Assembly (NCBI RefSeq): GCF_900177715.1
Contig: NZ_FXWG01000001.1
Span: 620,001-684,000 of the forward strand
Reading direction: 5' to 3'
DNA length: 64,000 nucleotides
From: Altererythrobacter xiamenensis
GTDB taxonomy: Bacteria; Pseudomonadota; Alphaproteobacteria; Sphingomonadales; Sphingomonadaceae
The stretch's first letter is position 1; each line of letters starts with the position of its first letter. Both the position numbers and the translations under genes were made by a program. Below, piece by piece: positions 14,122 through 38,792 of this stretch. The notes below the pieces were generated by a model. The model was not told the origin of the DNA. It saw only the letters and a list, made by a program, of their open reading frames with translations, and made no database searches.

Positions 14122-15408
14122 ATGAACGCGCCCTGGAAATCCGGAATGCCCGGTAACCGAGATCCATTTGCCGCCTATATCTGCGACGATGCCGCGCTCG
14201 ACGTACTGCGTCCGGTCGTCATCGAACTCGGCTGGCAGCCCGAAAAGTGCAACAAGGGCGGTCTGCGCAATGCGATCCAGTCGCTGAGCGTCAGCGCCAG
14301 CCCTTCGATCCTGGTAGTCGATCTGTCGGAAAGCGGCGACCCGCTCAACGACATCAACGCCCTTGCCGAGGTTTGCGAACCCGGCACGGTGGTGATCGCG
14401 ATCGGCCAGGTCAACGATGTCCGCCTTTACCGGGATCTGCTCTCGAGCGGCATTCACGACTACCTGCTGAAGCCGCTTTCGGCCGGCCAGCTTCGCGATG
14501 CGCTGAACGCGGCCCAGACCGTGTTTACCGCACCCAAGAACGCTGACGGTGAGGCGACCAAGCGTCACATTTCGACCGCGGTCGTCGGTACGCGTGGCGG
14601 TGTCGGCGCCTCGACGCTGGCAACTTCGCTCTCGTGGCTGTTCAGTGAAGAGCACAAGGCACCGACGGCACTGCTCGACCTCGACGTCCACTTCGGGACC
14701 GGCGCCCTCGCGCTCGATCTCGAGCCGGGCCGCGGCCTGACCGACGCGATCGACAATCCGAGCCGCATCGACGGCCTGTTCATCGAACGCGCCATGATCC
14801 GTGCGAACGACAACCTGTCGATCCTTTCTGCAGAAGCGCCGATCAACGCGCCGCTGATGACCGATGGCGCGGCTTTCGTCCAGCTGGAGGAAGAGTTCCG
14901 CCAGGCGTTCGAAATGACCGTGGTCGATCTGCCGCGCAACATGCTGATCAATTTCCCGCATGTGCTGGCGGATGTTAATCTCATCCTCCTCACGACGGAA
15001 ATGACACTTGCTTCTGCTCGTGACGCGATCCGCATCATCAGCTGGCTGAAGACCAATGCCGCGCATGCGCACATCATGGTCGTTGCCAACAAGGTGCAGG
15101 CTGGTGTCGCAGAGATCAGCAAGGCCGATTTCGAAGCCTCGATCGAACACAAGATCGATTTCTCGATTCCATACGACATCAAGGCTGCAGCCAATGCCGC
15201 CAAGATGGGCCAGGTGTTCGTCGAAGCGAACCGTTCGAGCAAGGCGACTTCGGTCATCAAGCAGATCGGCGAACGCGTGATGGGCGCGAGCGAGGAAAAC
15301 CTCGCCAATAGCGAACCCGAGAAGAAATCGCTGCTCGGCGGCTTCGATCTGAAATCGCTCCTCGCGAAAAAAGAAAAGAGCGCACCGGTCAGGGAAACGG
15401 CCGAATAA
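14122..15408 (+). CDS. cpaE: Pilus localisation ATPase-like protein CpaE/TadZ
   Basis: CpaE/TadZ is a MinD/ParA-related protein that places the pilus machine at the pole. The 428-aa product has an N-terminal receiver-like domain (about residues 12-125) and a MinD-like domain starting near 150 with AVVGTRGGVGASTLATSLSW. The Walker A reads GGVGAS, with Ala where ParA ATPases have the invariant Lys; this is a known trait of CpaE proteins, so catalytic activity is doubtful. LLDLDVHFGTGALALDLEPG and VVDLPRNML follow. The C-terminal tail is Lys/Glu rich. The next gene in most tad loci is the ATPase cpaF; here a hairpin and tadB follow. Confidence 0.92.
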   Translation: MNAPWKSGMPGNRDPFAAYICDDAALDVLRPVVIELGWQPEKCNKGGLRNAIQSLSVSASPSILVVDLSESGDPLNDINALAEVCEPGTVVIAIGQVNDVRLYRDLLSSGIHDYLLKPLSAGQLRDALNAAQTVFTAPKNADGEATKRHISTAVVGTRGGVGASTLATSLSWLFSEEHKAPTALLDLDVHFGTGALALDLEPGRGLTDAIDNPSRIDGLFIERAMIRANDNLSILSAEAPINAPLMTDGAAFVQLEEEFRQAFEMTVVDLPRNMLINFPHVLADVNLILLTTEMTLASARDAIRIISWLKTNAAHAHIMVVANKVQAGVAEISKADFEASIEHKIDFSIPYDIKAAANAAKMGQVFVEANRSSKATSVIKQIGERVMGASEENLANSEPEKKSLLGGFDLKSLLAKKEKSAPVRETAE

Positions 15409-15422
15409 GGGTCGTGAACCAA

Positions 15423-15458
15423 GGGCCATCCGGAGCAAAACGCGGTTTCGGATGGCCC
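15423..15458 (+). other. Perfect inverted repeat in the cpaE-tadB gap
   Basis: A 10-bp perfect stem, GGGCCATCCG at 15423-15432 and CGGATGGCCC at 15449-15458, encloses a 16-base loop. No T-run follows, so it is not a standard terminator. It could slow polymerase, protect upstream mRNA from 3' exonucleases, or mark a deletion scar. It occupies most of the 96-base gap between cpaE and tadB, where cpaF is usually encoded. Confidence 0.6.
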
Positions 15459-15504
15459 CCACGATCAAATCCAACGAGTTGAAACGGAAAGGCGGGACAA
15501 TCCA

Positions 15505-16476
15505 ATGAGCACCATACAGCTCCTGCTAATCGTCGGCGTCATTTTCGGCGTACTGGTGGTCGGCTTTGTCCTGATGTCGGGTCCGTCGCCTGCCAAGGAA
15601 AGCCAGCGTCGCCTCCAGGCGGTTCGCTTCCGGCATTCCGAAAGCACCGACACCAAGGTTGAATCGCAGCTCAAGAAGGCGATCGCCGCGCGCAAGCCCA
15701 AGGCACACAAGGTCGCGGGCTCAAGTTCGCGTATCGAAGCGCTCGAGATGCGTCTCGACCGGACCGGCAAGGGCTGGACGCTGCAGCAATATGCCTATGC
15801 CTCGCTCGGCCTCGCGCTGTTCGTTGCGGTCATCCTGTTCCTGCGCACCGGCTCGCTCGGACTGTCGCTCGGCGTCGGCCTGTTCGTCGGCGCAGGTCTC
15901 CCGCACTTCGTGGTCGGCTACTTCATCAAGAAGCGGACTAACGCCTTCAACGTGAAATTCCCTGACGGGATCGAACTGCTCGTGCGTGGTCTGCGTTCGG
16001 GTCTGCCTGTTACCGAAACGCTCGCCGTGGTGGCCCAGGAAGTCCCCGGCCCTGTCGGCGAGGAATTCAAGGGCATCGTCGAGCGCATCAAGATCGGCCG
16101 CACCATGGAGGAATCGCTCCAGGAAACGGCCGACCGTCTCGGGATCCCCGAGTTCAACTTCTTCTGCATCACTCTGGCGATCCAGCGCGAAACCGGTGGT
16201 AACCTCGCCGAGACGCTGTCCAACCTTGCCGACGTGCTGCGCAAGCGCGCACAGATGAAGCTCAAGATCCGCGCGATGAGTTCGGAATCGAAAGCCTCGG
16301 CCTATATCGTCGGCGCGCTGCCGTTCATCGTCTTCTTCATGATCTGGTGGATCAACCCGTCCTACATCGGCGGCTTCTTCACCGACGATCGCCTGATCGT
16401 CGCCGGTCTGGGCGGCATGGTCTGGATGTCGATCGGCGGCTTCATCATGGCCAAGATGGTCAGCTTCGAAATCTGA
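15505..16476 (+). CDS. tadB: Tad pilus inner-membrane platform protein TadB (T2SS F family)
   Basis: One of the two polytopic platform proteins of the Flp pilus. The 323-aa protein has an N-terminal helix (residues 5-25), a basic cytoplasmic stretch, a helix pair near 100-135, and the T2SSF core. The core includes FPDGIELLVRGLRSGLPVTETLAVVAQEVPGPVGEEF and GIPEFNFFCITLAIQRETGGNLAETLSNLADVLRKR. Two C-terminal helices end at KMVSFEI. It starts with ATG at 15505 behind AAGGCGGGA. It requires a cytoplasmic ATPase (CpaF/TadA), which is not encoded in this locus. tadC follows after 20 bases. Confidence 0.93.
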   Translation: MSTIQLLLIVGVIFGVLVVGFVLMSGPSPAKESQRRLQAVRFRHSESTDTKVESQLKKAIAARKPKAHKVAGSSSRIEALEMRLDRTGKGWTLQQYAYASLGLALFVAVILFLRTGSLGLSLGVGLFVGAGLPHFVVGYFIKKRTNAFNVKFPDGIELLVRGLRSGLPVTETLAVVAQEVPGPVGEEFKGIVERIKIGRTMEESLQETADRLGIPEFNFFCITLAIQRETGGNLAETLSNLADVLRKRAQMKLKIRAMSSESKASAYIVGALPFIVFFMIWWINPSYIGGFFTDDRLIVAGLGGMVWMSIGGFIMAKMVSFEI

Positions 16477-16496
16477 GCGAGGGATAGGAAAGACAC

Positions 16497-17498
16497 ATGA
16501 ATTCTCCCGGACCCACGCTACTCGGCTTCGACGTCATCCTCGTCGGCTCGCTTCTGGCTGGCCTGGCTGCGATGGCGATGATGTTCGCGATCTACACCGC
16601 GGTCACCATCAAGGACCCGATGGCGAAGCGCGTGAAATCGCTCAACGACCGCCGCGAGGAACTCAAGGCAGGTATCATCACCTCGACCGCGAAAAAGCGC
16701 GCCAGTCTGGTGCGCCGGACGGACAAGACCGACAAGGTGAAGCAACAGCTGGAAGGGATGAAGGTTCTCCAGGAGAGCCAGATTGCCGACGTCCAGCAAA
16801 AGCTTGCCCATGCCGGCTATCGCAACAAGGAACTCGCCGTTTTCGTGATCGGTGCGCGCCTCGTCCTTCCAATCGTGTTCGGCATCATCGGCGTGCTGAT
16901 GATCTACGTCATCGATTATTTCCCGGACTGGGGCGGCGTGAAACGCGTCGGCGCGCTCGGTGCCCTGCTTTTCGCAGGCTACAAGGGCCCGGAAATCTTC
17001 CTGAAGAACAAGGCCAGCAAACGTACCGACGAAATCCGCAAGGGCCTGCCTGACGCGCTCGACCTGCTGGTCATCTGCGCCGAGGCCGGTCTGACCGTCG
17101 ATGCCGCCTTCAACCGGGTCGCCAAGGAACTGGGGCGCGCCTATCCGGAACTGGGTGACGAGTTCGCCCTGACCGCGATCGAGCTGTCCTTCCTCAACGA
17201 ACGCAAGAAGGCTTTCGATAATCTCGCCTATCGCGTCGATCTGGAAGCGGTGCGCGGCGTCGTCACCACCATGATCCAGACGGAACGTTACGGTACACCG
17301 CTAGCATCCGCACTGCGCGTGCTTTCGGCAGAGTTCCGTAACGAACGCATGATGCGCGCCGAGGAAAAGGCAGCGCGTCTCCCGGCGATCATGACCGTGC
17401 CGCTGATCATGTTCATTCTGCCGGTGCTGTTCATCGTCATTCTCGGTCCGGCGGCCTGTTCGATCTCGGACGCCTTCGCAGCCAAGCCGGGTCGCTGA
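16497..17498 (+). CDS. tadC: Tad pilus inner-membrane platform protein TadC (T2SS F family)
   Basis: Second platform protein, 333 aa. It has an N-terminal helix (about 12-38), a basic linker, a helix pair near 110-150, and the F-family domain with GLPDALDLLVICAEAGLTVDAAFNRVAKELGRAYPELGDE and VTTMIQTERYGTPLASALRVLSAEFRNERMMRAEEKAARLP. A terminal hydrophobic helix follows (MTVPLIMFILPVLFIVILGP). It is the last gene of the operon. TadD and the TadE/TadG minor pilins, which often follow, are absent; the next gene is on the other strand after a terminator. Confidence 0.93.
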   Translation: MNSPGPTLLGFDVILVGSLLAGLAAMAMMFAIYTAVTIKDPMAKRVKSLNDRREELKAGIITSTAKKRASLVRRTDKTDKVKQQLEGMKVLQESQIADVQQKLAHAGYRNKELAVFVIGARLVLPIVFGIIGVLMIYVIDYFPDWGGVKRVGALGALLFAGYKGPEIFLKNKASKRTDEIRKGLPDALDLLVICAEAGLTVDAAFNRVAKELGRAYPELGDEFALTAIELSFLNERKKAFDNLAYRVDLEAVRGVVTTMIQTERYGTPLASALRVLSAEFRNERMMRAEEKAARLPAIMTVPLIMFILPVLFIVILGPAACSISDAFAAKPGR

Positions 17499-21104: not shown

Positions 21105-21267
21105 GGCGATTCTCCTTAGCCTGTATGGTTTGGGAGTGGCCTAAGCAGGGGCTTCGAGCGGGTCAACTCACTTATATACCTATGTGGCGCGGGGATCGTT
21201 ATAGTGTGGTGCGCCCAGGGCGTGCCGCTTGCCTGAGATTGCCGCGCGGCATAAAGTCTGCACGAAT

Positions 21268-22011
21268 ATGACGAAGAAGCTTTTCGAGATTAATCCAGAC
21301 CTGGACAGGGCCGCGCTGGCCCGGCGTTTTGCCGAACATACGCGCGTGCAGGTCCGCGATTTCCTGACCCGCGAGACGGCAGAGGAAATCCGCATGATCT
21401 TGTCGCAGGCAACGCCCTGGGGCCTTGCCATGCAGGCCGATGGTTCAGGTTTCGAAGGGCCGCAGCAAATCCTCCCACAGGATATGCGGTCGCCGGACGG
21501 TCAACAACGCGCACAGGCCATCGGTCAGGCGACGCAGGATGCAGCGGCCCGCGGTGACTACGCCTTTCGCTTCGCCCAATATCCTATTCTTCAGGCGGTG
21601 CAGGAAAACTGGTCCCCCGACAGTCCGCATGAATTACTGCTGGAATACATCAACGCACCCGAGTTTCTGCAGTTGGCGCGCGACATCACCGGTTTCGACG
21701 ATCTGGTGAAGGCGGATGGGCAGGCCACCCTCTTTGCCAAACAACAATTCCTCGGCCGCCACATCGACAGCCACGTCGCAGAAGGCTGGAAGGTCGCCTA
21801 TGTCATGAACTTCGCGGTCGATGACTGGCATCCCGACTGGGGCGGCTATCTCCAGTTCCTCGACGAGGAGGGCGACATCGTCGAGGGGTTCCGGCCACGC
21901 TTCAACGCGCTGAACCTGTTCGCGGTGCCGCAGGCGCACTCGGTGTCATTCGTCGCGCCGTTCGCACCTGTCGGACGCTATGCCATCACCGGCTGGCTGC
22001 GCGACCGGTGA
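21268..22011 (+). CDS. 2-oxoglutarate/Fe(II) oxygenase, OGFOD1/Tpa1-like prolyl hydroxylase type
   Basis: The 247-aa protein has a jelly-roll oxygenase core with the iron ligands H165 and D167 (GRHIDSHVAEGWKVAYVMNF) and distal H224 (VPQAHSVSFV), and the 2-oxoglutarate Arg at R237 (GRYAITGWLRDR). The order, with H-x-D followed by a WGGYLQF strand, resembles eukaryotic OGFOD1/Tpa1 and bacterial prolyl hydroxylases that modify translation proteins; the true substrate is unknown. The start at 21268 has no strong ribosome-binding site, but the frame upstream only offers a TTG at 21229. Its stop overlaps the GTG of the next gene (GTGA), implying translational coupling. Confidence 0.82.
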   Translation: MTKKLFEINPDLDRAALARRFAEHTRVQVRDFLTRETAEEIRMILSQATPWGLAMQADGSGFEGPQQILPQDMRSPDGQQRAQAIGQATQDAAARGDYAFRFAQYPILQAVQENWSPDSPHELLLEYINAPEFLQLARDITGFDDLVKADGQATLFAKQQFLGRHIDSHVAEGWKVAYVMNFAVDDWHPDWGGYLQFLDEEGDIVEGFRPRFNALNLFAVPQAHSVSFVAPFAPVGRYAITGWLRDR

Positions 22012-23690
22012 TCCCCAAGGACGTCTCGGACGCAATCAACAGTGCCCGCGCCATGGCCCAGAAGGGTGATCTTTCCAGCGCGCGGGAACTGCTTTCGCGC
22101 ACGCTCGAGGTTCATCCGGCACAACCGCCCCTCGCCAACACGGCGGGGAACCTGGCAATGCGGGCGGGCGACCTCAATGCGGCGGAGCGGCTGTTTGCTC
22201 AGGCTGCGCAGCTTGAGCCGGGCAGCGCCGAATACGCGATAAACCACGCCATCGCGCTGCAACGCCTAGGCCGGTCTGCAGAGGCCATCTCGGCCCTCAC
22301 TCCAATTGAAGAAGCTGGTCGCAAACTGCCGAAATATTGCAATGTCAGGGCTGCATGCGAACGCGAGCGGGACAATCTGGATCAGGCCCGCAAGTGGTAC
22401 GAGCTGTCGCTTTCGGCAGATCGCCAGAATGCCAGGGCGCTGCATGGTCGAGCCAGAGTAGCCATCGAAAGCGCTGAGCCCGATGCACGCACACGTTTCG
22501 ATCACGCCTTGGCAGTCAATCCTACCGAGCCGGACTTGTGGCTGGGGAAAGCGCAAGCGCTCGACGTCGAAGGAGAGGTGCAAGGCGCAAGATCGATCGC
22601 CGAGCAGTTGGTGCAACAGGCGCCCGGCTGGGCGGATGGATTGAAGTTTCTCGCGCAATTGAAGCTCGGCGCGGGAGAGGAAGACTTCACCGAGCACTAC
22701 CGCAATGCGGTCGAGCGTGTGCCCGACGCACCTGCTATCTGGCTCGACTGGATAGGCCTTTTGGGCGGGCTCGACCACGATGCGCAAGCGACCGAGGTCG
22801 CCGCGGAGGCACGGCGCAAGTTCCCGTCCGAACCGCTTTTTGCGCTCCTCGAGGCCATTCATGCAGGTGCGGCAGGCGACGACGATAGAGCTGAGGCAAT
22901 ATTTGCAAACGTGTCGCTTGGCGACGTCAATCGCCGGGTTCACGAAGCGCGCCATCGTATCCGGCGCGGAGAATACGAGCGCGCAGAGGTCCTTTTGAAC
23001 AACGCTATCGAAAGCGATCGATCGAACATCGCGGCGTGGGCGCTAACGGGGATCGTATGGAGACTGACGGGAAATCCGCGCGGCGACTGGCTTCATCTGC
23101 AGGATAATCTCTTTCGCCAGCTTCCGCTCGAGGCCGACGCAGGTGTTCTCGAGGCAGCCATCCCGCTTCTGCACAGGCTGCACGACAACAGCCCGCTGCC
23201 GCTCAGCCAATCGCTCCGTGGTGGCACACAGACCCGTGGGCGCCTCTTCGCGCGAACCGAGCCCGAACTGCGACGCCTTCACCGGGCTATCCTCGAAACG
23301 CTGAAACGATACCAAAGCGAACTACCGGAGAAGGAAGTCGAGCACCCGCTATTGAGGCATCGAGACGAGATTTGGCGCCTGGAGGGATCGTGGTCGGTGC
23401 GGCTGAGCGGCGGCGGAGACTACCACACCTCGCACATTCACCCACAGGGCGTTGTATCCTCTGCGCTCTATGTCGAGCGTTCAGGCGAAGAGGAAAGCGA
23501 GCCTCATGCTGGCTGGCTTGAGATCGGCCGTCCCCCGCCCGATTTGCGGTTGGATCTGGAACCGCTGGCGGTCCTCCCGCCAAAACCTGGCCACCTCACC
23601 CTTTTTCCAAGCACACTCTATCATGGCACGAGGTCATTTGCCGCAGGTCGGCGGATGACGGTTGCATTCGATGTCGTGCCGGAGGATTAG
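22008..23690 (+). CDS. TPR protein with C-terminal putative 2OG-Fe(II) oxygenase domain
   Basis: The 560-aa protein has N-terminal helical repeats of TPR type (residues 1 to about 340, for example GDLSSARELLSRTLEVHP and GDLNAAERLFAQAAQLEPGS). A C-terminal jelly-roll domain has candidate iron ligands in GGGDYHTSHIHPQG (H476, H478 region) and a distal His in STLYHGTRSF (H539), followed by Arg548/549. This matches the layout of putative 2OG-Fe(II) oxygenases fused to TPRs. The TPRs probably hold a protein substrate. The start is GTG at 22008 inside the previous gene's stop. The methyltransferase gene starts six bases after its stop. Confidence 0.82.
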   Translation: MIPKDVSDAINSARAMAQKGDLSSARELLSRTLEVHPAQPPLANTAGNLAMRAGDLNAAERLFAQAAQLEPGSAEYAINHAIALQRLGRSAEAISALTPIEEAGRKLPKYCNVRAACERERDNLDQARKWYELSLSADRQNARALHGRARVAIESAEPDARTRFDHALAVNPTEPDLWLGKAQALDVEGEVQGARSIAEQLVQQAPGWADGLKFLAQLKLGAGEEDFTEHYRNAVERVPDAPAIWLDWIGLLGGLDHDAQATEVAAEARRKFPSEPLFALLEAIHAGAAGDDDRAEAIFANVSLGDVNRRVHEARHRIRRGEYERAEVLLNNAIESDRSNIAAWALTGIVWRLTGNPRGDWLHLQDNLFRQLPLEADAGVLEAAIPLLHRLHDNSPLPLSQSLRGGTQTRGRLFARTEPELRRLHRAILETLKRYQSELPEKEVEHPLLRHRDEIWRLEGSWSVRLSGGGDYHTSHIHPQGVVSSALYVERSGEEESEPHAGWLEIGRPPPDLRLDLEPLAVLPPKPGHLTLFPSTLYHGTRSFAAGRRMTVAFDVVPED

Positions 23691-23696
23691 GGGCGC

Positions 23697-24605
23697 ATGA
23701 CCGGAGAGCACGCTAAATCCTGGAACGATTTCTGGGCGCAAAGCAAGTCTAGCGGACAGGGCTGCCTGCCTGCAGCGGGTTACGAACAAATCGACGCTGC
23801 ACAGAAAGCCCGATGGGTCGACCTCGCGAAGCAATTGCCAAGAAACGCGCGAGTGCTTGATCTGGCGACCGGAAATGGTCTGGTCATGCGCTGGATGCTC
23901 GGCGAGCGTCGCGACCTCAAGTTGACCGGTGTGGATCTCGCCCCTGTTTTGCCACCGTCTCCCAAGGGTACAAAAACACGCGCTGGCGTGCCGATGGAGG
24001 AACTGCCCTTCCCGGACGACCGCTTTCACGCCGTGGTGAGCCAATTCGGCTTCGAATATGGCGATACAGCCAAGGTCGCCGAGGAAGCGGCACGGGTCCT
24101 CGGCAAGGGCGGTACACTGGCCATCCTGACCCACAGGCAGGATGGACCGATCCTGGCCCACAATCTCAAGCGTCGCGAACAGATCCGCTGGGCGATCGAC
24201 GAGAAGAACTTACCGGACATCGCGCGGAAAAGTCTTCAGCTTCGCGGGCGCGGTATCTTCACGATCCCGACAGCAATACAGCAGGCACCCGAAGAAGGCG
24301 CCCGACTACATGGGCCGCAATCGGCCGCCTGGGAAATTGCCGAAGCTTTGCGCCAGACGCTGGCGATGAGCAGACACGATCATCCTGCGAATGTCGCCCG
24401 ACTGATCGATACGATGGTTTTCCATGCCCGCAACGAGCTCGGCCGGATCGCCTCGCTTGAGGCAGCCTGCGCCACCACGGCTGATGAGGAACGGTTCACG
24501 GCAGCAATCGAGGCCGCGGGCTTCGAGCCCACCGGAATCGAGCCGGTTCTGGAAAAGGGCCGCGCAACACGTTTCGCGGACTTCCGGACCTATCGGCTGA
24601 GCTGA
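23697..24605 (+). CDS. Class I SAM-dependent methyltransferase
   Basis: A 302-aa methyltransferase with motif I ARVLDLATGNGLVMRWML (about residues 50-67), the acidic end of strand 2 in LTGVDLAP, and motif II/III region LPFPDDRFHAVVSQFGFEYGD followed by ARVLGKGGTLAILTHR. This is the methyltransferase-11 type; no substrate domain is recognisable. The C-terminus (GFEPTGIEPVLEKGRATRFADFRTYRLS) is a typical cap. A strong GGAGGATTAGGGGCGC precedes the ATG. It closes a three-gene plus-strand run with the two oxygenases, suggesting that it acts on the same product or pathway; that is inference. Confidence 0.86.
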   Translation: MTGEHAKSWNDFWAQSKSSGQGCLPAAGYEQIDAAQKARWVDLAKQLPRNARVLDLATGNGLVMRWMLGERRDLKLTGVDLAPVLPPSPKGTKTRAGVPMEELPFPDDRFHAVVSQFGFEYGDTAKVAEEAARVLGKGGTLAILTHRQDGPILAHNLKRREQIRWAIDEKNLPDIARKSLQLRGRGIFTIPTAIQQAPEEGARLHGPQSAAWEIAEALRQTLAMSRHDHPANVARLIDTMVFHARNELGRIASLEAACATTADEERFTAAIEAAGFEPTGIEPVLEKGRATRFADFRTYRLS

Positions 24606-24787
24606 CGAACCCCAGCGTGGCGGCACAAGCCGCTCTTCACGCTATGCCGCATCGAAGAAATTACGTTCGCAGAAGGCGCTCCTGCCCCGTGGCCAGCCGG
24701 ATCAGGTAGGGCTTGAGGGACGGTTTCGCAAAACCGCGCGATCGACAGTCCCTCTGCGGTACAGAATAGGCTTCTGACAAAGCAAAA

Positions 24788-24813
24788 GGGCGGCGGACCG
24801 AAGTCCACCGCCC
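24788..24813 (-). terminator. Intrinsic terminator of the TonB-dependent receptor gene
   Basis: GGGCGGCGGA and TCCACCGCCC form a 10-bp stem with one mismatch and a six-base loop. On the minus strand it is followed by TTTTGCTTTG, 30 bases after the receptor stop. It may also stop transcription from the methyltransferase gene on the plus strand. The remainder of the 238-base gap (24606-24843) shows no gene. Confidence 0.8.
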
Positions 24814-24843
24814 CCTTGTCTGCTGTTTCGCAGGACTGCGTTC

Positions 24844-27822
24844 TTAGAACTTGAACGAAGCCGAAGCGAAGTAGCGGCGACCAAGCACGTCGTAAGTGCT
24901 CGGATAGGTGTTGGCCTGTTCCTGGTTGTCACCAAGGAGCAGCGAGTTCGGACGGTTGGTCACATAAAGACCATCCGCGTCGAACGTCGGGGTCCCCGGC
25001 AGCTTGTCCAGGAGGTTGTTGACGCCGAGGCCGAGTTCGAAGTTTTCGGTCACTGCAAACGAGAACGACAGGTCGAACAGGTCATAGGAGTCGATCTTGC
25101 CGATACCGTTGAAGCTTTCCCATTCTTCGATGGTCAGAACCGACTCGTCATCCTTGATCGAGCTGAGGTGACGCCAGCGGAGCGACGTCGTCAGCGGACC
25201 GTCGATCCAGCTCAGACGGCTCGTCCACTTGTACTTCGCCTGCGGCTCGCCACAAGTCAGACCGAAGCGGCCAGCGCAATCATACGGAGTTGCAAGCGGA
25301 TCTTCCTGAACTTCGAAGGAGTCCGTGTAGGTTCCCAGGAAGCTGAAGTTGATACGCGAGTCACCCTGATCCGTCAGCAGCGAGAACGGTACGTTCGAGC
25401 TGTAGTTGACTTCAAGGTCGACACCGGTCGTGCTGAACGTCGCAATGTTCTGCGAGCCAAGGAACGGCGGATTCGCTGTGGTGAACGAACCAGTGGTTTC
25501 GTCACGAGTACCGATGAACGGTGCACAGAAGCTCGAACCCAGATCCTGGACCTGATTGAAGCAGAGATCGAACTGACGCTGCAGCGAGACCGTGCTGATC
25601 GCATTGTCCACGGTGATATCGAAGTAGTCAGCCGTGATCGTCAGCCCCGGAATGAAGCTCGGCTGAAGAACGACACCAACAGTCCAACTGTCCGAAGTTT
25701 CTTCCGAAAGGTTCGGGTTACCACCGAACAATGCCGGGATCTGGGCATTGATCTGCAGGTCGGGATTGCCAATTGCGCCAGTCGGAACGCCGTTCGCTGC
25801 ACAAAGGGCGTTCAATGTCGCATTCGTGCCTGCTGCTGCAGTCGAACACGGGTCGGTCGCACCGGGGAAGCCGATAGCGCTTCCCTGGAACAGTTCAGCG
25901 ATGTTCGGTGCACGAACAGCGCGCTGATACTGGCCACGCAGGGTGATGTCCGGAACAGGCTGGAACTTGACGCCGCCGGCATAGGCCCAGACACCGCCGA
26001 CCGTGTCGAGCGAGTAGTCGGAGTAGCGAGCCTTACCGTCCAGTTCGAGCGACATCCCACCGAAATCGATTGGAATGTTCAATTCGGCGAAGACGTCCTT
26101 CACATTGTAGGAGCCTTCGGTCGGATCACCAGCGTTGAAGCCGATCACGTCACCCGAAGACAAAGCAGTGTCAGGAATGAATTGCGCAGCGACACCGCGA
26201 TATTCCGCACCGATAGCAAAACCGATGGGGCTGGAGGTTTCGGTAACGGCAAAGTCGCCAAACGTGCCGGAAATCGTGGCATTAGCGACTTCGAGAGTCG
26301 AAATGTCACCATTCTGGGCCTGGATCGTGATGGCATCCACCATCTCTGGCGTCAGCGTGCCCGGACCAAAGACATTGATCGGGGTGCCGGTACCGTCGAG
26401 TCCAGCCTGGAAGGCCGAACGCGACACGTTACCGGCCTGGATGTTGGCATTGCGGGTGCGCGCATAGAAGTAGTGCGCATCGTACTGCATGTAATCGTTG
26501 ATCGGCCCCGTCACGCCGCCGAGCACGCGGAATGCGTTACGTTCGTCGAGCGAGTTACGACGGCCGGTTTCGATCACGCGGCGCTGAATGAACGTGCTGA
26601 CCACGCCCAGTTCTGCGGCTGCGAGAGGCGCAAGACCGTTTGCAACGCGCAGAGCACTTGCAGCTGCTTCGTTCGCGTCGAGCTGCTGGAACTCGGCGAA
26701 GGTAGCGGCATCGACGAACGGCTGAATGGTAGCCAGATCGACGTTGAACGTGCCGGTTACCGGGGTAGCAGCAAGCTCCTGAGCCACGCGGTTATTCACA
26801 TAGGCGACTTCGGTGTAGAAGCTGTGGCCATCGCTGAATTCGTAATCAGCATAACCACCCATCAGGTAACGTTCCTGCGGAAGCTGCAGGTAGTTGACCG
26901 GAGCATAGTTGTAGGTTTCGCCGTTGCGAGCCTGAGCAACGCTTGCCGTCGGGAAGATGGCATCGTCGATCGTAAGACCAGCAGCGAGCGGAGCGGTGTT
27001 GCCGTCTTCGTCGATCGCAACCGTGCCCGGGGTGTTCACACGACCATAGGGAACGGTCGAAGAACCGAACGCCTGAAGATCGTCGCCGAAGGTTTCTGCG
27101 CCGACTGCCACGTTCGAGAAGGCGCGATCACCCTGGAAAACAGACGAACGGTTGTAGTATTCGGCGAATACGGTCGCGCTACCGCGACCATCATCGAAAG
27201 ACGTGCCGATAGCACCGTGGATCTGGTAGCTTTCGCCGTCACCGCGATCGGTGATTGCGTACTGGCCGCCCAGTTCGACGCCGTCGACTTGACGAAGACG
27301 GAAGTTGACGACACCGGCCATAGCGTCCGAACCGTAAACAGCCGAAGCACCACCCGTCACAACGTCGACAGTGTCGATCAGGAAGTTAGGGATGGTGTTG
27401 AGGTCGACCACCTGGCTGACATCATAGAACATCCAGCGGCGGCCGTTGACAAGAACAAGGTTACGGTTGGTGCCGAGACCGCGAAGGTTCAGCGTAGCAG
27501 TACCGTTACCCGGGTTGTTCGAGAACGAAGTCGTACCCGGAACGACCTGCGGCAGCGTGTTGACGACGTTTTCGACGTTGACCGCACCCGATAGGGTGAA
27601 CTCTTCGTCGGTGACGACAGCGATCGGCGCTGCGGTTTCAACGTTGCGACGCGCGATACGCGAACCGGTTACGACGATGGTCTGACCAAGTTCAGCATCA
27701 TCAGGTTCAGCCTGCAGCGCGGGCTCGTTATCTTCGTCTTGCGCGTAAACAGGCGTGGCGATCATGGCACCGGCCATTACCGTCCCCGCCAGCAGCGAAG
27801 CCTTGTTAAATCGAGTGGACAT
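24844..27822 (-). CDS. TonB-dependent outer-membrane receptor
   Basis: A 992-aa receptor of the sphingomonad TonB-dependent class. It has a signal peptide, MSTRFNKASLLAGTVMAGAM up to ATPVYAQ (cleavage near 27), and an acidic N-terminal segment. A TonB box-like GQTIVVTGSRI follows. The plug domain (about 60-170) has NLRGLGTNRNLVLVNGRRW and VDVVTGGASAVYGSDAMAGVVNF. A 22-strand-type beta-barrel ends with RYFASASFKF, whose terminal Phe is the Bam signal. The substrate is unknown; sphingomonad receptors of this group often take up oligosaccharides or peptides. I chose the ATG at 27822, preceded by AAGGGGATTGGA, over one at 27861. Confidence 0.92.
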   Translation of the reverse strand: MSTRFNKASLLAGTVMAGAMIATPVYAQDEDNEPALQAEPDDAELGQTIVVTGSRIARRNVETAAPIAVVTDEEFTLSGAVNVENVVNTLPQVVPGTTSFSNNPGNGTATLNLRGLGTNRNLVLVNGRRWMFYDVSQVVDLNTIPNFLIDTVDVVTGGASAVYGSDAMAGVVNFRLRQVDGVELGGQYAITDRGDGESYQIHGAIGTSFDDGRGSATVFAEYYNRSSVFQGDRAFSNVAVGAETFGDDLQAFGSSTVPYGRVNTPGTVAIDEDGNTAPLAAGLTIDDAIFPTASVAQARNGETYNYAPVNYLQLPQERYLMGGYADYEFSDGHSFYTEVAYVNNRVAQELAATPVTGTFNVDLATIQPFVDAATFAEFQQLDANEAAASALRVANGLAPLAAAELGVVSTFIQRRVIETGRRNSLDERNAFRVLGGVTGPINDYMQYDAHYFYARTRNANIQAGNVSRSAFQAGLDGTGTPINVFGPGTLTPEMVDAITIQAQNGDISTLEVANATISGTFGDFAVTETSSPIGFAIGAEYRGVAAQFIPDTALSSGDVIGFNAGDPTEGSYNVKDVFAELNIPIDFGGMSLELDGKARYSDYSLDTVGGVWAYAGGVKFQPVPDITLRGQYQRAVRAPNIAELFQGSAIGFPGATDPCSTAAAGTNATLNALCAANGVPTGAIGNPDLQINAQIPALFGGNPNLSEETSDSWTVGVVLQPSFIPGLTITADYFDITVDNAISTVSLQRQFDLCFNQVQDLGSSFCAPFIGTRDETTGSFTTANPPFLGSQNIATFSTTGVDLEVNYSSNVPFSLLTDQGDSRINFSFLGTYTDSFEVQEDPLATPYDCAGRFGLTCGEPQAKYKWTSRLSWIDGPLTTSLRWRHLSSIKDDESVLTIEEWESFNGIGKIDSYDLFDLSFSFAVTENFELGLGVNNLLDKLPGTPTFDADGLYVTNRPNSLLLGDNQEQANTYPSTYDVLGRRYFASASFKF

Positions 27823-28046
27823 TCCAATCCCCTTAAAAGTGAGCGCCATCACAGCGCACATGCGAATTCATAAACTCCGGGCTTTGACCCGAATGATGCG
27901 CGTCTAGGCCAACGATGGTTACGACTGCAACGTATGGCGGGCTGCAAAACGCCGTATCTCGGCGAGTGTGGCATTCCTGTTACAGTTGGCCGGGCTGCCT
28001 GTTTATGCGAGCAGAACCTCAGCAAATCCCTCGTAAGGACTCGGAA

Positions 28047-28562
28047 ATGAAACGCTTCACGACCTGCGCCGCCGCTTCGCTGGCATTCGCATTCCCGGCT
28101 AACGCAACCGCGCAGGATAGCGCCGCCGATCCCGATCATCTGGAAGAGTTGCAGCGATGCCAGATAATCTCGGACGACGGCGCACGTCTGGCCTGTTTCG
28201 ACGCCGCAGTCGGCGGCATGGTTGCCGCCAGCGAGGCGGGTGAGGTTCAGGTCGTCAAGAAAGAAGAAGTGGAGCAAACCCGTCGCGGACTGTTCGGTTT
28301 CACCATGCCGAAGATTGGGTTCCTCGGCGGGGACGGGGAAGAGATGAAACTTCTTCAGTCCACTATCACCGGGGTGCGGAGCATCCGCCGCGGTTACATC
28401 TTGACCATCGAAGAAGGAAGCGTGTGGCAGTTAAGTGGTGTTCCTTCGCGATTGCGTCCGCCGAAAGTTGGCGATGATGTGGAGTTCAAGAAAGCGGCGC
28501 TAGGCTCCTATTTTGTCCGGATTAATGGGCAGATAGGTGTAAAAGGAACACGGATCCAATAA
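28047..28562 (+). CDS. Exported protein with a DDGARLxCFD motif, function unknown
   Basis: The 171-aa protein has a signal peptide (MKRFTTCAAASLAFAFPANA, cleavage near ATAQ). A short cysteine motif follows, LQRCQIISDDGARLACFDAA (two Cys 14 residues apart), a pattern seen in diverse periplasmic proteins of proteobacteria including VasI/TagO-type proteins. The C-terminal half (about 95-171) is beta-rich: ITGVRSIRRGYILTIEEGSVWQL and GSYFVRINGQIGVKGTRIQ. Start ATG at 28047 follows TAAGGA; the frame extends upstream but the signal peptide fixes the start. It lies between two receptor genes, divergent from the first and 341 bases before the second. No function is assigned. Confidence 0.8.
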   Translation: MKRFTTCAAASLAFAFPANATAQDSAADPDHLEELQRCQIISDDGARLACFDAAVGGMVAASEAGEVQVVKKEEVEQTRRGLFGFTMPKIGFLGGDGEEMKLLQSTITGVRSIRRGYILTIEEGSVWQLSGVPSRLRPPKVGDDVEFKKAALGSYFVRINGQIGVKGTRIQ

Positions 28563-28903
28563 GGCCGGGCAGGTCCGTCGGGTGTTCGCTTGGCAGTGAG
28601 CAACAGCCGTCCATCAAGAGATGATGACGCGCGCACCCACCAACTCCAACTCTTCCGCAAGACCACGATCGCTCAGCGAATCGAGGCAACCGATCAGACC
28701 GAAAAACGTTTGCGACGAAATATCTGCAGCCCCGTTCGCCTGCAGATTGGTCGAAGATTACACATTTGTTGCATTTGGGTAACGCCCTGAAGTTCAATTC
28801 CTGCGAAGGGGCGTAAAACTGAGCGAGCGACTTGCTTGGCGGCTTCGAGATTGCTTTTAGAGCGAAAGGTGCCGGTAGTTTCCGGACCACAAAGGGGACT
28901 GAA
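28563..28903 (+). promoter_or_regulatory. 341-base leader region upstream of the second TonB-dependent receptor
   Basis: No supported gene lies here. It holds a GTTGCATTTGGGTAAC stretch (28768-28783), which shares GTTGCATTT with the palindrome in the clpB promoter, and the receptor ribosome-binding site AAAGGGGACT just before the ATG at 28904. I could not place a -35/-10 pair with confidence. Confidence 0.35.
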
Positions 28904-31900
28904 ATGACGAAAACTCACAACGCCACCAGGCTGGGTGGTCGCGCGGCGCTTTTTGCAAGCGCCGGAATTGCAGCCATGGCCCTCTCTACACCTGCACTCG
29001 CGCAGGATGAGGATGAGACGGTCGAGGTCGCCGCAGAAGAAGATGGCGTCGAATCGCCAACCGAACCCGCGATGATCATCGTGTCGGGCTCGCGCATCGC
29101 GCGTCCGAACCTCGATTCGCCGGTTCCGCTGACCGCGGTCACCGCTGAAGAGCTTACCGCACAGGGCGATATCTCGCTCGGTGATGCTCTTAACGACCTT
29201 CCTTCGCTGCGCAGCACTTTCAGCCAGGGTAACTCCACCCGCTTCATCGGTACGGCAGGCCTTAACCTGCTCGACCTTCGCGGCCTCGGCACCAGCCGTA
29301 CGCTGGTCCTCGTGAACGGCAGGCGCCACGTAACCGCGCTGCCGGGCGACTACATCGTCGACGTCAACACCATTCCTGTTGACCTGCTCGAGCGCGTCGA
29401 CGTCGTGACCGGCGGTAACTCCGCAATTTACGGTTCGGACGCTGTCGCCGGTGTCGTGAACTTCATCCTGCGTCGCGATTTCGACGGTCTTGCCGTTCGC
29501 GGTCAGGCCGGCATCTCCTCGCGCGGCGATCGTGCGACACGCTTCCTGTCGGCAACCTACGGCAAGAACTTCGGTGACGGTCGCGGCAACATTGCCGTTT
29601 CGGGTGAATACGCGAAGTCCGATCCGCTCTATTTCCGTGAGCGCGATGGTCTGACCGGCGCCTACAGCGGTCGCTGCCAGTACAACGTTGTCAGCGACAG
29701 CCAGGCAGACGAAGGGCCCTTCGGCACCGACGGCATCACCGACCTTGAGCCGGTCTGCGGTGTCCGCAACGGCTTCATTTCCGACGGCGGCACGGTCGGC
29801 GGCCTCGGTGGCGGCCAGTATCTGCGCTTCGCAAGCGACGGGACTCTGTTCGTCGATGTTCCCGACCAGGTTCTTCCGTTCTCGGGCAACGACATCGGTA
29901 CGGAAGGTTCGACCCTTCGCAACACCGGTCAGCTCGCTGCAGGTCTTGAGCGCTATACCGCGAACCTGCTTGCCAGCTTCGAAGTCAGTGAAGCGTTCCG
30001 CCCGTTCGTCGAAGCGAAATACGTTCACGTCGAAGCCATCCAGGAAGGTCAGCCGAGCTTCTTCGTCGGTGGGCCAACCTTCGTGGGCGGCAATCCGCTG
30101 TTCTGCGACAACGCGTTCCTGAACAACAGCGCACTGGCGACGCTGCAGAGCTTCGGCCTGTGTTCGGCAGGACGTACCAACACCCAGACCATTCCGCTGA
30201 CCCGCTTCAACGTCGACTTCGGCGGCCGTGGCGAGTTGCAGGATCGCGACACCTATCGCATTGTCGCTGGTATCGAAGGTACGTTCAACACGGACTGGAA
30301 CTACGAGCTGTCGCTCAACTACGGCCGTCTCGAAACCGATCTGCGGTCGCTCAACAACCTCGTGTCGTTTGACCTTGATGGCAACCCGGCTGGCTTCAAC
30401 CTCGCTGCAGATGCAGTGCTGGATGCAAGCGGAAACCCGGCCTGCCGCATCAATACCGATGCGGATCCGACGAACGATGATCCCGCCTGTGTTCCGATCA
30501 ACCTGTTCGGGTTCGGTGCACCGAGCCAGGAAGCACTCGCCTACATCAACACGACCGGTCGTCGTATGGAAGAGGCAGAGCAGTTCGTCGCTCTGGCAAC
30601 GGTCGCTGGTGACCTTTCGCAGCTCTTCGAACTGCCGGGTGGCCCCGTCGGCTTCGCTCTGGGCGCTGAGTATCGCGAAGAAACCGCTTACAGCGAATGG
30701 GACGAACTCGTCGCAAGCGGCGGTACCTTCCTCAATGCGATCCAGCCGTTCAATCCACCCAAGCTGACCGTCAAGGAAGCTTTCGGCGAAGTTCGGATTC
30801 CGATCCTTGCCGACCTGCCGTTCGCGCATGAGTTGACCGTCAGTGCCGCAGGCCGCGTCTCTGACTACAACACGGCAACGGGTACGGTTTACGCGTACAA
30901 CATCAACGGTAGCTACGCTCCGATCCCGGACATTCGCTTCCGCGCCGGCTACGCGACTTCGGTCCGTGCACCGACGCAAAGCGACCTGTTCTCGCCCGGT
31001 TCGCAGAACTTCGCGTTCATTGCCGACCCGTGTGACCAGCAGACCGGTGCGATCAACAACAACCCGAACCGTGCAGCCAACTGTGCTGCTGCCGGAGTTC
31101 CGACTACTGCGGATGCCGCGCTTGTCGCTGCTTGCGCCGGCACGTCGTTCCCGGTTGCTCTGGGTGATCCTTACACCAACTGTACGGCTCGGACCTCGTC
31201 GACCTCTTTCCTCTCGGGTGGTAACCCCACTCTCACCGAGGAAAAGGGCAAGTCGCTGACCATCGGTGTCGTGATCGAGCCGAGCTTCATTCCGGGGCTC
31301 AGCCTGACCGCTGACTACTACAACATCGAGATCGAAGATCAGATCGCGGTTCTCGGTGCACAGACGATCATCAACAACTGCTATAGCTCGCCCTCGGGCC
31401 TGAACAATCAGTACTGTGCGACGGTCAATCGTACGGGAACTGGTCTGTTCGATCCCAACCAGGCGGTTATTTCGGGCGGCATCAACTTCGCTTCGCGCGA
31501 AACCGAAGGTGTCGATATCGATCTGCAGTACCGTCGTACGTTCGACAACGGCGATCGTCTGACGTTCCGTGCAATCGCAACGCACCTCATCAAGCTCGAC
31601 TTCTTTGAGGATCCGACTGCTCCGAACAACCCGAACCGCGTCAAGAGCGAAAAGGGTGACCCGGATTGGGCGGCTTCGGTCAACCTGGCGTACGACTTCG
31701 GTAATTTCGAAGTCGGTTACTCGGCTCGTTACCTCTCTGCGATGTACAAGAGCGCATATGAGAACGCCAATTCGTATCGCGGCATCTGCCCGACCTCGGG
31801 CGTCGTGGGCTTCTCCGGCGGTACCTGTACCCCGGGCGAACTTACGATCCTCGATCCGGCCAACGCCGACCAGTACGAAGATCCGAAGTTCGGTTCCGAG

Positions 31901-32074
31901 ATCTACCACAACCTGCGTCTGACCTTCACGGCAGCCGAAGACTTCGACTTCTATGTCGGCGTCGACAACTTCACCGACAACAAGCCGCCGTTCGGCGAGC
32001 TTGGTACCGGTGGCGGCGATCCGTGGGAAATCTTCGGACGTTACTTCTACGCTGGTTTCTCGATCGACATGTAA
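28904..32074 (+). CDS. TonB-dependent outer-membrane receptor
   Basis: A 1056-aa receptor related to the one at 24844. The signal peptide runs from MTKTHNATRLGGRAALFASA to cleavage near residue 33 (PALAQ). An acidic linker follows, then a TonB box-like MIIVSGSRIARPNLDSPVPL. The plug contains LNLLDLRGLGTSRTLVLVNG and VDVVTGGNSAIYGSDAVAGVVNF. The barrel includes several Cys-containing loops (for example NCAAAGVPTTADAALVAACAG) and closes with WEIFGRYFYAGFSIDM, ending in Met rather than Phe. The start at 28904 is fixed by the signal peptide and AAAGGGGACT. A strong terminator follows at 32121. Substrate unknown. Confidence 0.92.
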   Translation: MTKTHNATRLGGRAALFASAGIAAMALSTPALAQDEDETVEVAAEEDGVESPTEPAMIIVSGSRIARPNLDSPVPLTAVTAEELTAQGDISLGDALNDLPSLRSTFSQGNSTRFIGTAGLNLLDLRGLGTSRTLVLVNGRRHVTALPGDYIVDVNTIPVDLLERVDVVTGGNSAIYGSDAVAGVVNFILRRDFDGLAVRGQAGISSRGDRATRFLSATYGKNFGDGRGNIAVSGEYAKSDPLYFRERDGLTGAYSGRCQYNVVSDSQADEGPFGTDGITDLEPVCGVRNGFISDGGTVGGLGGGQYLRFASDGTLFVDVPDQVLPFSGNDIGTEGSTLRNTGQLAAGLERYTANLLASFEVSEAFRPFVEAKYVHVEAIQEGQPSFFVGGPTFVGGNPLFCDNAFLNNSALATLQSFGLCSAGRTNTQTIPLTRFNVDFGGRGELQDRDTYRIVAGIEGTFNTDWNYELSLNYGRLETDLRSLNNLVSFDLDGNPAGFNLAADAVLDASGNPACRINTDADPTNDDPACVPINLFGFGAPSQEALAYINTTGRRMEEAEQFVALATVAGDLSQLFELPGGPVGFALGAEYREETAYSEWDELVASGGTFLNAIQPFNPPKLTVKEAFGEVRIPILADLPFAHELTVSAAGRVSDYNTATGTVYAYNINGSYAPIPDIRFRAGYATSVRAPTQSDLFSPGSQNFAFIADPCDQQTGAINNNPNRAANCAAAGVPTTADAALVAACAGTSFPVALGDPYTNCTARTSSTSFLSGGNPTLTEEKGKSLTIGVVIEPSFIPGLSLTADYYNIEIEDQIAVLGAQTIINNCYSSPSGLNNQYCATVNRTGTGLFDPNQAVISGGINFASRETEGVDIDLQYRRTFDNGDRLTFRAIATHLIKLDFFEDPTAPNNPNRVKSEKGDPDWAASVNLAYDFGNFEVGYSARYLSAMYKSAYENANSYRGICPTSGVVGFSGGTCTPGELTILDPANADQYEDPKFGSEIYHNLRLTFTAAEDFDFYVGVDNFTDNKPPFGELGTGGGDPWEIFGRYFYAGFSIDM

Positions 32075-32120
32075 ATGTCGGGTTCGGGGGGCTTCGCTCC
32101 TCTCGAAAGACCAAAAAGAA

Positions 32121-32144
32121 AGGGCCCCGGGAAACCGGGGCCCT
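32121..32144. terminator. Strong bidirectional terminator between receptor and clpB
   Basis: A 10-bp perfect stem AGGGCCCCGG/CCGGGGCCCT closes a GAAA tetraloop and is followed by TTTTTCG on the plus strand and by TTCTTTTTGG on the minus strand. It serves the receptor gene and clpB, which converge here. Confidence 0.93.
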
Positions 32145-32207
32145 TTTTCGTTGGGTGCTCGCTCTGATAACCGGCGCTCCGCGGGAACGCCCGACGGACT
32201 TTACGAC

Positions 32208-38749: not shown

Positions 38750-38792
38750 ACAGCCTACCCATCCGATCAGAGACAAACCCCGGAGTATCTGC

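Follow-up and report, generated by a model that had tools for sequence, protein, structure and literature searches.

The nearest described parallel to the gene cluster considered here, an oxygenase and methyltransferase cassette beside a TonB-dependent receptor gene in Altererythrobacter xiamenensis, is the PiuC/PiuA pair, in which the gene for a 2-oxoglutarate (2OG)-Fe(II) oxygenase adjoins that for a TonB-dependent receptor; a conserved adjacency of this kind was also found at the present locus. YbiX beside Fiu is the same kind of pair. PiuC belongs to another oxygenase subfamily, PiuA is a receptor of another type, and the pair includes neither a tetratricopeptide repeat (TPR) oxygenase nor a methyltransferase. 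To our knowledge, the role of 2OG oxygenases beside TonB-dependent receptors has been unclear so far. The piuC gene is reported to be located beside the receptor gene piuA and PiuC mutations to accompany siderophore-antibiotic resistance, the effect of these mutations having been identified in silico only according to the authors (PMC11878004). The cassette consists of three genes (A, B and C) at positions 21268–24605 of a stretch of 64,000 nucleotides (contig NZ_FXWG01000001.1, positions 620,001–684,000; hereafter, the window, whose numbering is used below unless a locus name is given). In the full-text literature, judged by titles and the start of abstracts, no description of an A-B-C cassette was found, many subscription papers lying outside this coverage. 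We tentatively propose that A-B(-C) encodes accessory enzymes that serve the adjacent TonB-dependent receptor specifically, a reading that we consider the most plausible of the explanations weighed below. The features concerned are as follows.

21268–22011, plus strand: gene A, single-domain 2OG-Fe(II) oxygenase with a Tpa1/OGFOD1-like catalytic fold (open frame, Pfam, structure model)
22008–23690, plus strand: gene B, TPR superhelix with a PF13759 oxygenase domain (open frame, Pfam, structure model)
23697–24605, plus strand: gene C, class-I S-adenosylmethionine (SAM) methyltransferase (VLDLATGNG), optional cassette member (open frame, Pfam)
24844–27861, minus strand: TBDR1, convergent TonB-dependent receptor, conserved start probably at 27822 (Pfam, relatives)
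27508–27522, minus strand: SNNPG codons of the TBDR1 plug, residues 114–118 of the 24844–27861 frame (receptor alignment)
28047–28562, plus strand: F3, small, probably exported protein with a presumed start codon
28907–32074, plus strand: TBDR2, second TonB-dependent receptor, a variable element of the thiolase-ClpB interval (Pfam)

A, B and C form one operon with two different 2OG-type oxygenases and one methyltransferase. The tight packing and the enzyme composition, both part of the original prediction from the sequence, were confirmed from the open frames and by Pfam, respectively: the stop codon of A overlaps the GTG start of B in a GTGA sequence, and six bases separate the TAG of B from the ATG of C. 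The 3′ end of the convergent TBDR1 lies 238 bases beyond C, and a thiolase, short-chain dehydrogenase/reductase (SDR), enoyl-CoA hydratase (ECH) and MarR group is located upstream of A and divergent from it. The two TonB-dependent receptors that had been noted next to the cassette were recovered with Pfam (24844–27861 and 28907–32074); they are the central feature of the locus and not mere neighbours.

Related loci were taken as the best 80 of 287 relatives with a B alignment in a contig scan, a choice that favours orthologues; they are titled mostly as Erythrobacteraceae and other Sphingomonadaceae, and some sit in genomes also counted in the genus survey described below. Loci were counted by tblastn, gene calling having missed several B genes, and intergenic spacings rest on start codons picked by script. 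A was located directly upstream of B in 70 of the 80 loci, and in 68 of these 70 the run closed with a convergent relative of TBDR1 (identity of 40% or more). The order A-B-C-convergent TBDR1 was found in 48 loci and A-B-convergent TBDR1 in 20, and two further loci had A-B with TBDR1 further off. The expected co-occurrence of all three genes therefore stands for A and B, whereas C, found in 48/80 loci, is optional, leaving A, B and the receptor as the invariable core. Spacing ranged from −19 to +31 nt in the 70 A-B pairs and from −35 to +35 nt in the 48 B-C pairs, and this tight packing, retained in relatives, is more than chance. Left flanks varied, with thiolase in most loci, ClpB in Sphingobium, Novosphingobium and Sphingomonas relatives and other genes in Aurantiacibacter and others; the A-B-receptor unit was maintained beside thiolase, beside ClpB and elsewhere. 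Thiolase, SDR and ECH beta-oxidation genes flank A in many loci and were considered as functional partners, but the unit is kept without them and this idea was rejected. Apart from A, B and TBDR1, accompanied in most cases by F3 or C, no constant gene family was found in these loci, hence no inner-membrane transporter, most variable neighbours being unannotated. Many relatives have S9 peptidase genes immediately next to the locus. Six genomes (G001, G014 = L148, G016, G025 = L157, G034 and L154) shared the order receptor, second B, TPR-sulfotransferase, F3, A, B and convergent receptor, with C absent (Pfam was run on the G001 copies; the first receptor of G034 lies off the contig). In a genome of a different family (G046, locus L049), the gene order was another one, with a TPR-sulfotransferase between the receptor and A. 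The sister loci with a TPR-sulfotransferase and a second B, and without C, suggest that one receptor locus may acquire TPR tailoring enzymes of different kinds.

Presence and absence were compared among 37 genomes of the same genus, the present one included, with A counted at an identity of at least 58%, or as a fragment of at least 70%, and a TBDR1 orthologue at at least 47%. A was present in 17/37 genomes and the TBDR1 orthologue in 16/37; 15 genomes had both, 19 neither, two A only and one TBDR1 only (Fisher p = 2 × 10−7, relatedness ignored). All three exceptions occur at contig ends: the 4.4-kb contig of G013 (A only) ends in a piece of TBDR1 (L116), that of G023 (A only) ends in B, and the receptor of G010 (TBDR1 only) is cut by the contig start. 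G007, which has a 43% receptor but lacks A, and G012, whose A-like gene is distant (35%), were both counted as neither. The patchy distribution of A and its tracking of one particular TonB-dependent receptor point to the receptor or its ligand; for this reason, the ribosomal proteins and EF-Tu, named as first targets in the original prediction, are not the first choice.

Protein A comprises 247 residues in one domain (predicted structure with a predicted local distance difference test (pLDDT) score of 96.2). It matched PF13661 (59 bits) and PF13640 (45 bits) above the curated Pfam cut-offs, and no family was listed for it in the NCBIfam search. Its resemblance to OGFOD1/Tpa1, suspected from the sequence, was borne out by the model, whose best solved match was the Tpa1 catalytic domain (3kt4; Z 21.4, 194 residues, 2.2 Å), followed by OGFOD1 (Z 19.7), PPHD (4j25; Z 19.2, 179 residues, 3.1 Å), PolD (Z 18.8), and PasI and PHD2 (Z 18.1). 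A shares with OGFOD1/Tpa1 the catalytic double-stranded β-helix (DSBH) fold, HxD...H and Leu at the prolyl 3-hydroxylase (P3H) position, whereas it is single-domain, has Trp174 at the probable Arg column and is linked to an outer-membrane receptor. OGFOD1/Tpa1 are reported to have a second, C-terminal DSBH domain, with Leu at the position in question marking P3Hs and Tyr marking prolyl 4-hydroxylases (P4Hs), and an Arg at the active-site mouth (Arg322 of PHD2) is described as common to all prolyl hydroxylases (PMC4396695). The second DSBH domain is absent from the 247 residues of A, and A is not assigned to the OGFOD1/Tpa1 group. The iron ligands H165, D167 and H224 were invariant in 51/51 homologues, as were R237, by analogy the probable 2OG-binding Arg, and L162, three residues ahead of the first His. 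PPHD, the Pseudomonas EF-Tu prolyl 4-hydroxylase, has the same bacterial single-domain prolyl-hydroxylase fold as A, its sequence-level similarity being marginal (E = 0.064), whereas A has Leu162 where P4Hs carry Tyr. As separate observations, a second A paralogue (~30%–35% identity, HxD...H intact) stands divergent beside A in Sphingobium and Novosphingobium relatives (L124:3152–3880, L134:8276–9016, L139:8467–9195), and A homologues in other families are single or tandem, in several loci near acyl-CoA-dehydrogenase-clustering genes (L050:5078–7245, L058:9170–9883, L051:836–2291, L057:9268–9963). Loss of the HxD motif in some of these copies suggests pseudo-enzymes next to active ones.

Protein B matched several TPR families and PF13759 (2OG-FeII_Oxy_5) at residues 461–555 (62 bits; cut-off, 27) in Pfam, and the NCBIfam search gave only sub-threshold families for B and C. 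Its model (pLDDT 94.5) comprises a long TPR superhelix (residues ~6–354) and an oxygenase domain (~355–559). The best matches of the superhelix were tied between the TPRs of O-GlcNAc transferase (6eou; Z 19.4, 338 residues, 10.3 Å) and a designed TPR repeat (9qhb; Z 19.4, 270 residues, 5.8 Å), which establishes the fold of B without indicating its function. Residues H473, H476, H478, H539 and R549 were invariant in 51/51 sequences. Of the HxD...H ligands anticipated for both enzymes, those of A are intact, whereas B carries H476-x-H478...H539...R549, in which His replaces the acidic ligand of the canonical HX(D/E)...H. The oxygenase domain was closest to 3bvc (Z 17.2, 180 residues, 3.6 Å), 2rg4 (Z 16.4) and PHD2 (Z 15.3). 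The solved structures 2rg4 and 3bvc, uncharacterised and PF13759-like, share with B this domain and the HxHP (SHIHP) motif, whereas their chains of 216 and 212 amino acids are too short for its TPR superhelix; we know of no receptor link for either. AspH resembles B in its TPR plus oxygenase architecture and was among the Foldseek matches (E = 3 × 10−10), but whole-chain superposition was poor, with template modelling (TM) scores of just 0.27–0.34. At E 0.1, B gave 22 Pfam matches, none of them to PF05118, the AspH oxygenase domain family. AspH is likewise reported to lack the acidic ligand (PMC4543633), whereas B has His in its place.

For C, Methyltransf_11 was matched in Pfam (41 bits, above the curated cut-off), and a pattern search over 46 C relatives found a VLDLATGNG-like motif in 38. 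F3 measures ~170–190 amino acids across relatives, has a conserved core (RR.LFGF..P) and matched no Pfam or PADLOC family. It recurs beside these receptors, at times in two copies per locus, and is a second candidate substrate of A-B(-C) that was not rejected.

TBDR1 scored below the cut-off of every NCBIfam model listed, and the nearest solved plugs are those of Cir and BtuB. The SNNPG loop of its plug aligns with QNGGSG of BtuB, an apical loop facing the ligand. In the plug, SNNPG was found only among 62 TBDR1-type receptors (61 and that of the window itself), all from A loci, as opposed to 16 comparison receptors (nine from loci without A and seven second receptors of loci with A). Pro117, the residue that best distinguishes the two groups, was present in 64/64 TBDR1-type receptors versus 0/19 comparison receptors in the enlarged sets. 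The 19 include two receptors of G007 and one of G053, which are of similar divergence (37%–42% identity) and come from stretches with no A in the part read. In G046, from the other family, NNPG, A, B and the TPR-sulfotransferase occur together, and G048 has NNPG and B, its contig ending inside B. Across all loci, 81 of 177 distinct receptor frames carried NNPG, and 77 of the 81 had A within 4.5 kb; of the remainder, A lies at a greater distance in L128 and L133, and L098 and L045 break off within it. Among 180 residues nearly invariant in the TBDR1 type, seven were nearly absent from the comparison set, two of them Pro (117 and 367).

Pairing of TPR enzymes with receptors was surveyed more widely in 14 genomes, namely the present one (five contigs) and 13 chosen as single-contig; loci of G012, G021, G022 and G063 had already been examined. 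All matches to PF13469 (sulfotransferase) or PF13759 whose open frame reached 500 amino acids were included. A receptor was located within 2.5 kb of 10/11 long PF13759 frames (6/7 once four copies of this cassette were removed) and of 18/22 long sulfotransferase frames. TPRs were detected by Pfam in 20 of these 22 sulfotransferases, with a receptor within 2.5 kb for 18/20, at 2.9 kb for one more and none in the stretch for the last (L234), whereas the two without TPRs had no receptor within 2.5 kb (0/2). Shorter sulfotransferases had none anywhere in ~9 kb per side (0/15), and 0/17 of the sulfotransferases not shown to carry TPRs were within 2.5 kb of a receptor. Receptors were found with a generic plug profile; a narrower first profile gave 7/22 instead of 18/22, and the control was 0/15 with both. 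The 15 controls are mostly the stronger matches among 23 sulfotransferases of < 500 amino acids; left out were sulfotransferases of 445 and 480 amino acids (in neither group), the three shorter matches of the present genome and PF13759 frames of < 500 amino acids (5/15 matches in the further genomes and 2/3 in the present one). A TPR scan of 10 of the 15 controls found none, one frame (L258) matching nothing and probably being a wrong frame; among seven other long PF13759 frames, six had TPRs at E 1 × 10−5 and L239 had none. By chance, ~7% of random genes would be expected within 1.1 kb of one of the 32 receptors in the present genome; orthologues among the surveyed rows are not independent. 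Outside the window, two TPR-sulfotransferases of the present genome directly adjoin TonB-dependent receptors (L242:5098–10036, L243:6529–10724).

If the cassette is dedicated to its receptor, the receptor itself is perhaps its substrate. The lack of a constant transporter or biosynthetic gene and the long TPR superhelix of B suggest a polypeptide target, most simply the receptor precursor. The superhelix would hold this polypeptide, most likely the receptor before export, while A, B and C modify it in the cytoplasm. The successive modification of one target envisaged in the original prediction may apply. With its P3H-type pocket, A would hydroxylate a proline, the best candidate being Pro117 of the SNNPG plug loop; B, with its putative 3-His iron site, would hydroxylate a second residue; and C, where present, would methylate. 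Such modification would adjust how the receptor matures or binds its ligand. The fuller proposal that Sphingomonadales customise outer-membrane receptors through adjacent TPR-oxygenases and TPR-sulfotransferases acting before export, with A 3-hydroxylating Pro117, B hydroxylating a second residue through a 3-His iron site and C methylating, is unlikely.

Several observations weigh against receptor modification. The pocket-mouth Arg column is occupied by Trp174 in A (Trp in 40/51 and Arg in 11/51 homologues, in a weak alignment), the following residue being Arg in 33/51, Lys in 4/51 (Lys175 here) and Glu in 6/51. PolD and PasI have folds nearly as close to A as the prolyl hydroxylases (Z 18–19). 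Ten of the 80 loci have B without A before it: a more distant same-direction receptor occurs in five, F3 and then a receptor in four, and an S9 peptidase next in one. Class-wide, only 4/40 more distant B-like loci, from neighbourhoods drawn from ~50 matches covering the PF13759 oxygenase domain, had a receptor in the stretch (L179, L180 at 3.3 kb, L181 and L184), and no general receptor-pairing rule for PF13759 proteins of the class was found in these 40 neighbourhoods. Contig ends cut off the linkage of the NNPG receptor to A in G048 and G010. Of the 96 non-NNPG receptor frames, 14 lie within 4.5 kb of an A homologue; 10 of these are second receptors with an NNPG receptor elsewhere in the locus, whereas the other four come from loci in which no NNPG receptor was seen (L039, with a contig end in B, and L047, L060 and L164, where A is a distant homologue). 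F3, too, has one invariant Pro (17/17 sequences). Pro117 was singled out post hoc, and two Pro among seven discriminating residues are not unusual (P ~0.11); the receptors with NNPG seem to be orthologues from a single clade, and Pro117 may be a clade marker only. It is accordingly offered as a candidate target for testing rather than as evidence of modification.

The main rival is ligand processing, in which TBDR1 would take up a metabolite, such as a peptide or siderophore, for cytoplasmic modification by A, B and C. We regard this as possible, if rather unlikely. The same genomic linkage would fit, S9 peptidase genes stand beside the locus in many relatives, and PolD and PasI, the close folds of A, are enzymes of small-molecule pathways; on the other hand, no inner-membrane transporter is constant in the loci (most variable neighbours being unannotated), the superhelix of B suits a polypeptide, and the sulfotransferase of the sister loci adds a group, which fits modification better than catabolism. 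A quite improbable alternative is that the enzymes tailor a peptide or siderophore which the cell itself makes, secretes and takes back through TBDR1. Hydroxylases, methyltransferases and sulfotransferases are typical tailoring enzymes, and a receptor gene next to a biosynthetic locus is common, yet the annotated genes included no recognisable core biosynthetic enzyme or exporter, most variable neighbours being unannotated, and F3, a conserved protein of ~170–190 amino acids, is unlike a short leader-core precursor. Linkage without joint function, the variable thiolase-ClpB receptor region carrying oxygenase genes by chance, seems very unlikely: the interval is a hot spot for receptor genes and orthologous loci are not independent, but A, B and the receptor stay together at other sites in the genome, and TPR enzymes pair with receptors at other loci, against 0/17 for sulfotransferases not shown to carry TPRs. 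That uS12 or EF-Tu of the translation apparatus is the target is highly improbable, since A, for all its closeness in fold to Tpa1/OGFOD1 (uS12) and PPHD (EF-Tu) and the P3H signature L162, occurs in just 17/37 genomes of the genus, tracks one receptor type and lacks the second DSBH domain of OGFOD1/Tpa1.

Anti-phage defence was set aside as unlikely; PADLOC gave only partial matches (A, 2OG, 38.6 bits; B, PrimPol, 13.7 bits; C, mad2 region, 33.9 bits), with no search made for full defence systems around relatives. The surrounding thiolase-ClpB interval (21105–32207) is a variable receptor region in relatives, holding S9 peptidase genes, extra receptors or sulfotransferases. Elsewhere in the window, 14122–17498 and 36527–41672 hold ordinary neighbours: a putative pilus-assembly (Tad-like) gene run and a putative M16-like peptidase, both assigned by their sequences, as well as a protein of the penicillin amidase family.

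The cassette would represent a system of environmental bacteria with a dedicated receptor and a defined candidate residue. If general, the pairing of TPR-fused oxygenases and sulfotransferases with receptors would bring annotations now dispersed under ‘TPR protein’ and ‘sulfotransferase’ together as a single class open to testing, and plug-loop modification, if true, would be a hidden layer of ligand specificity.

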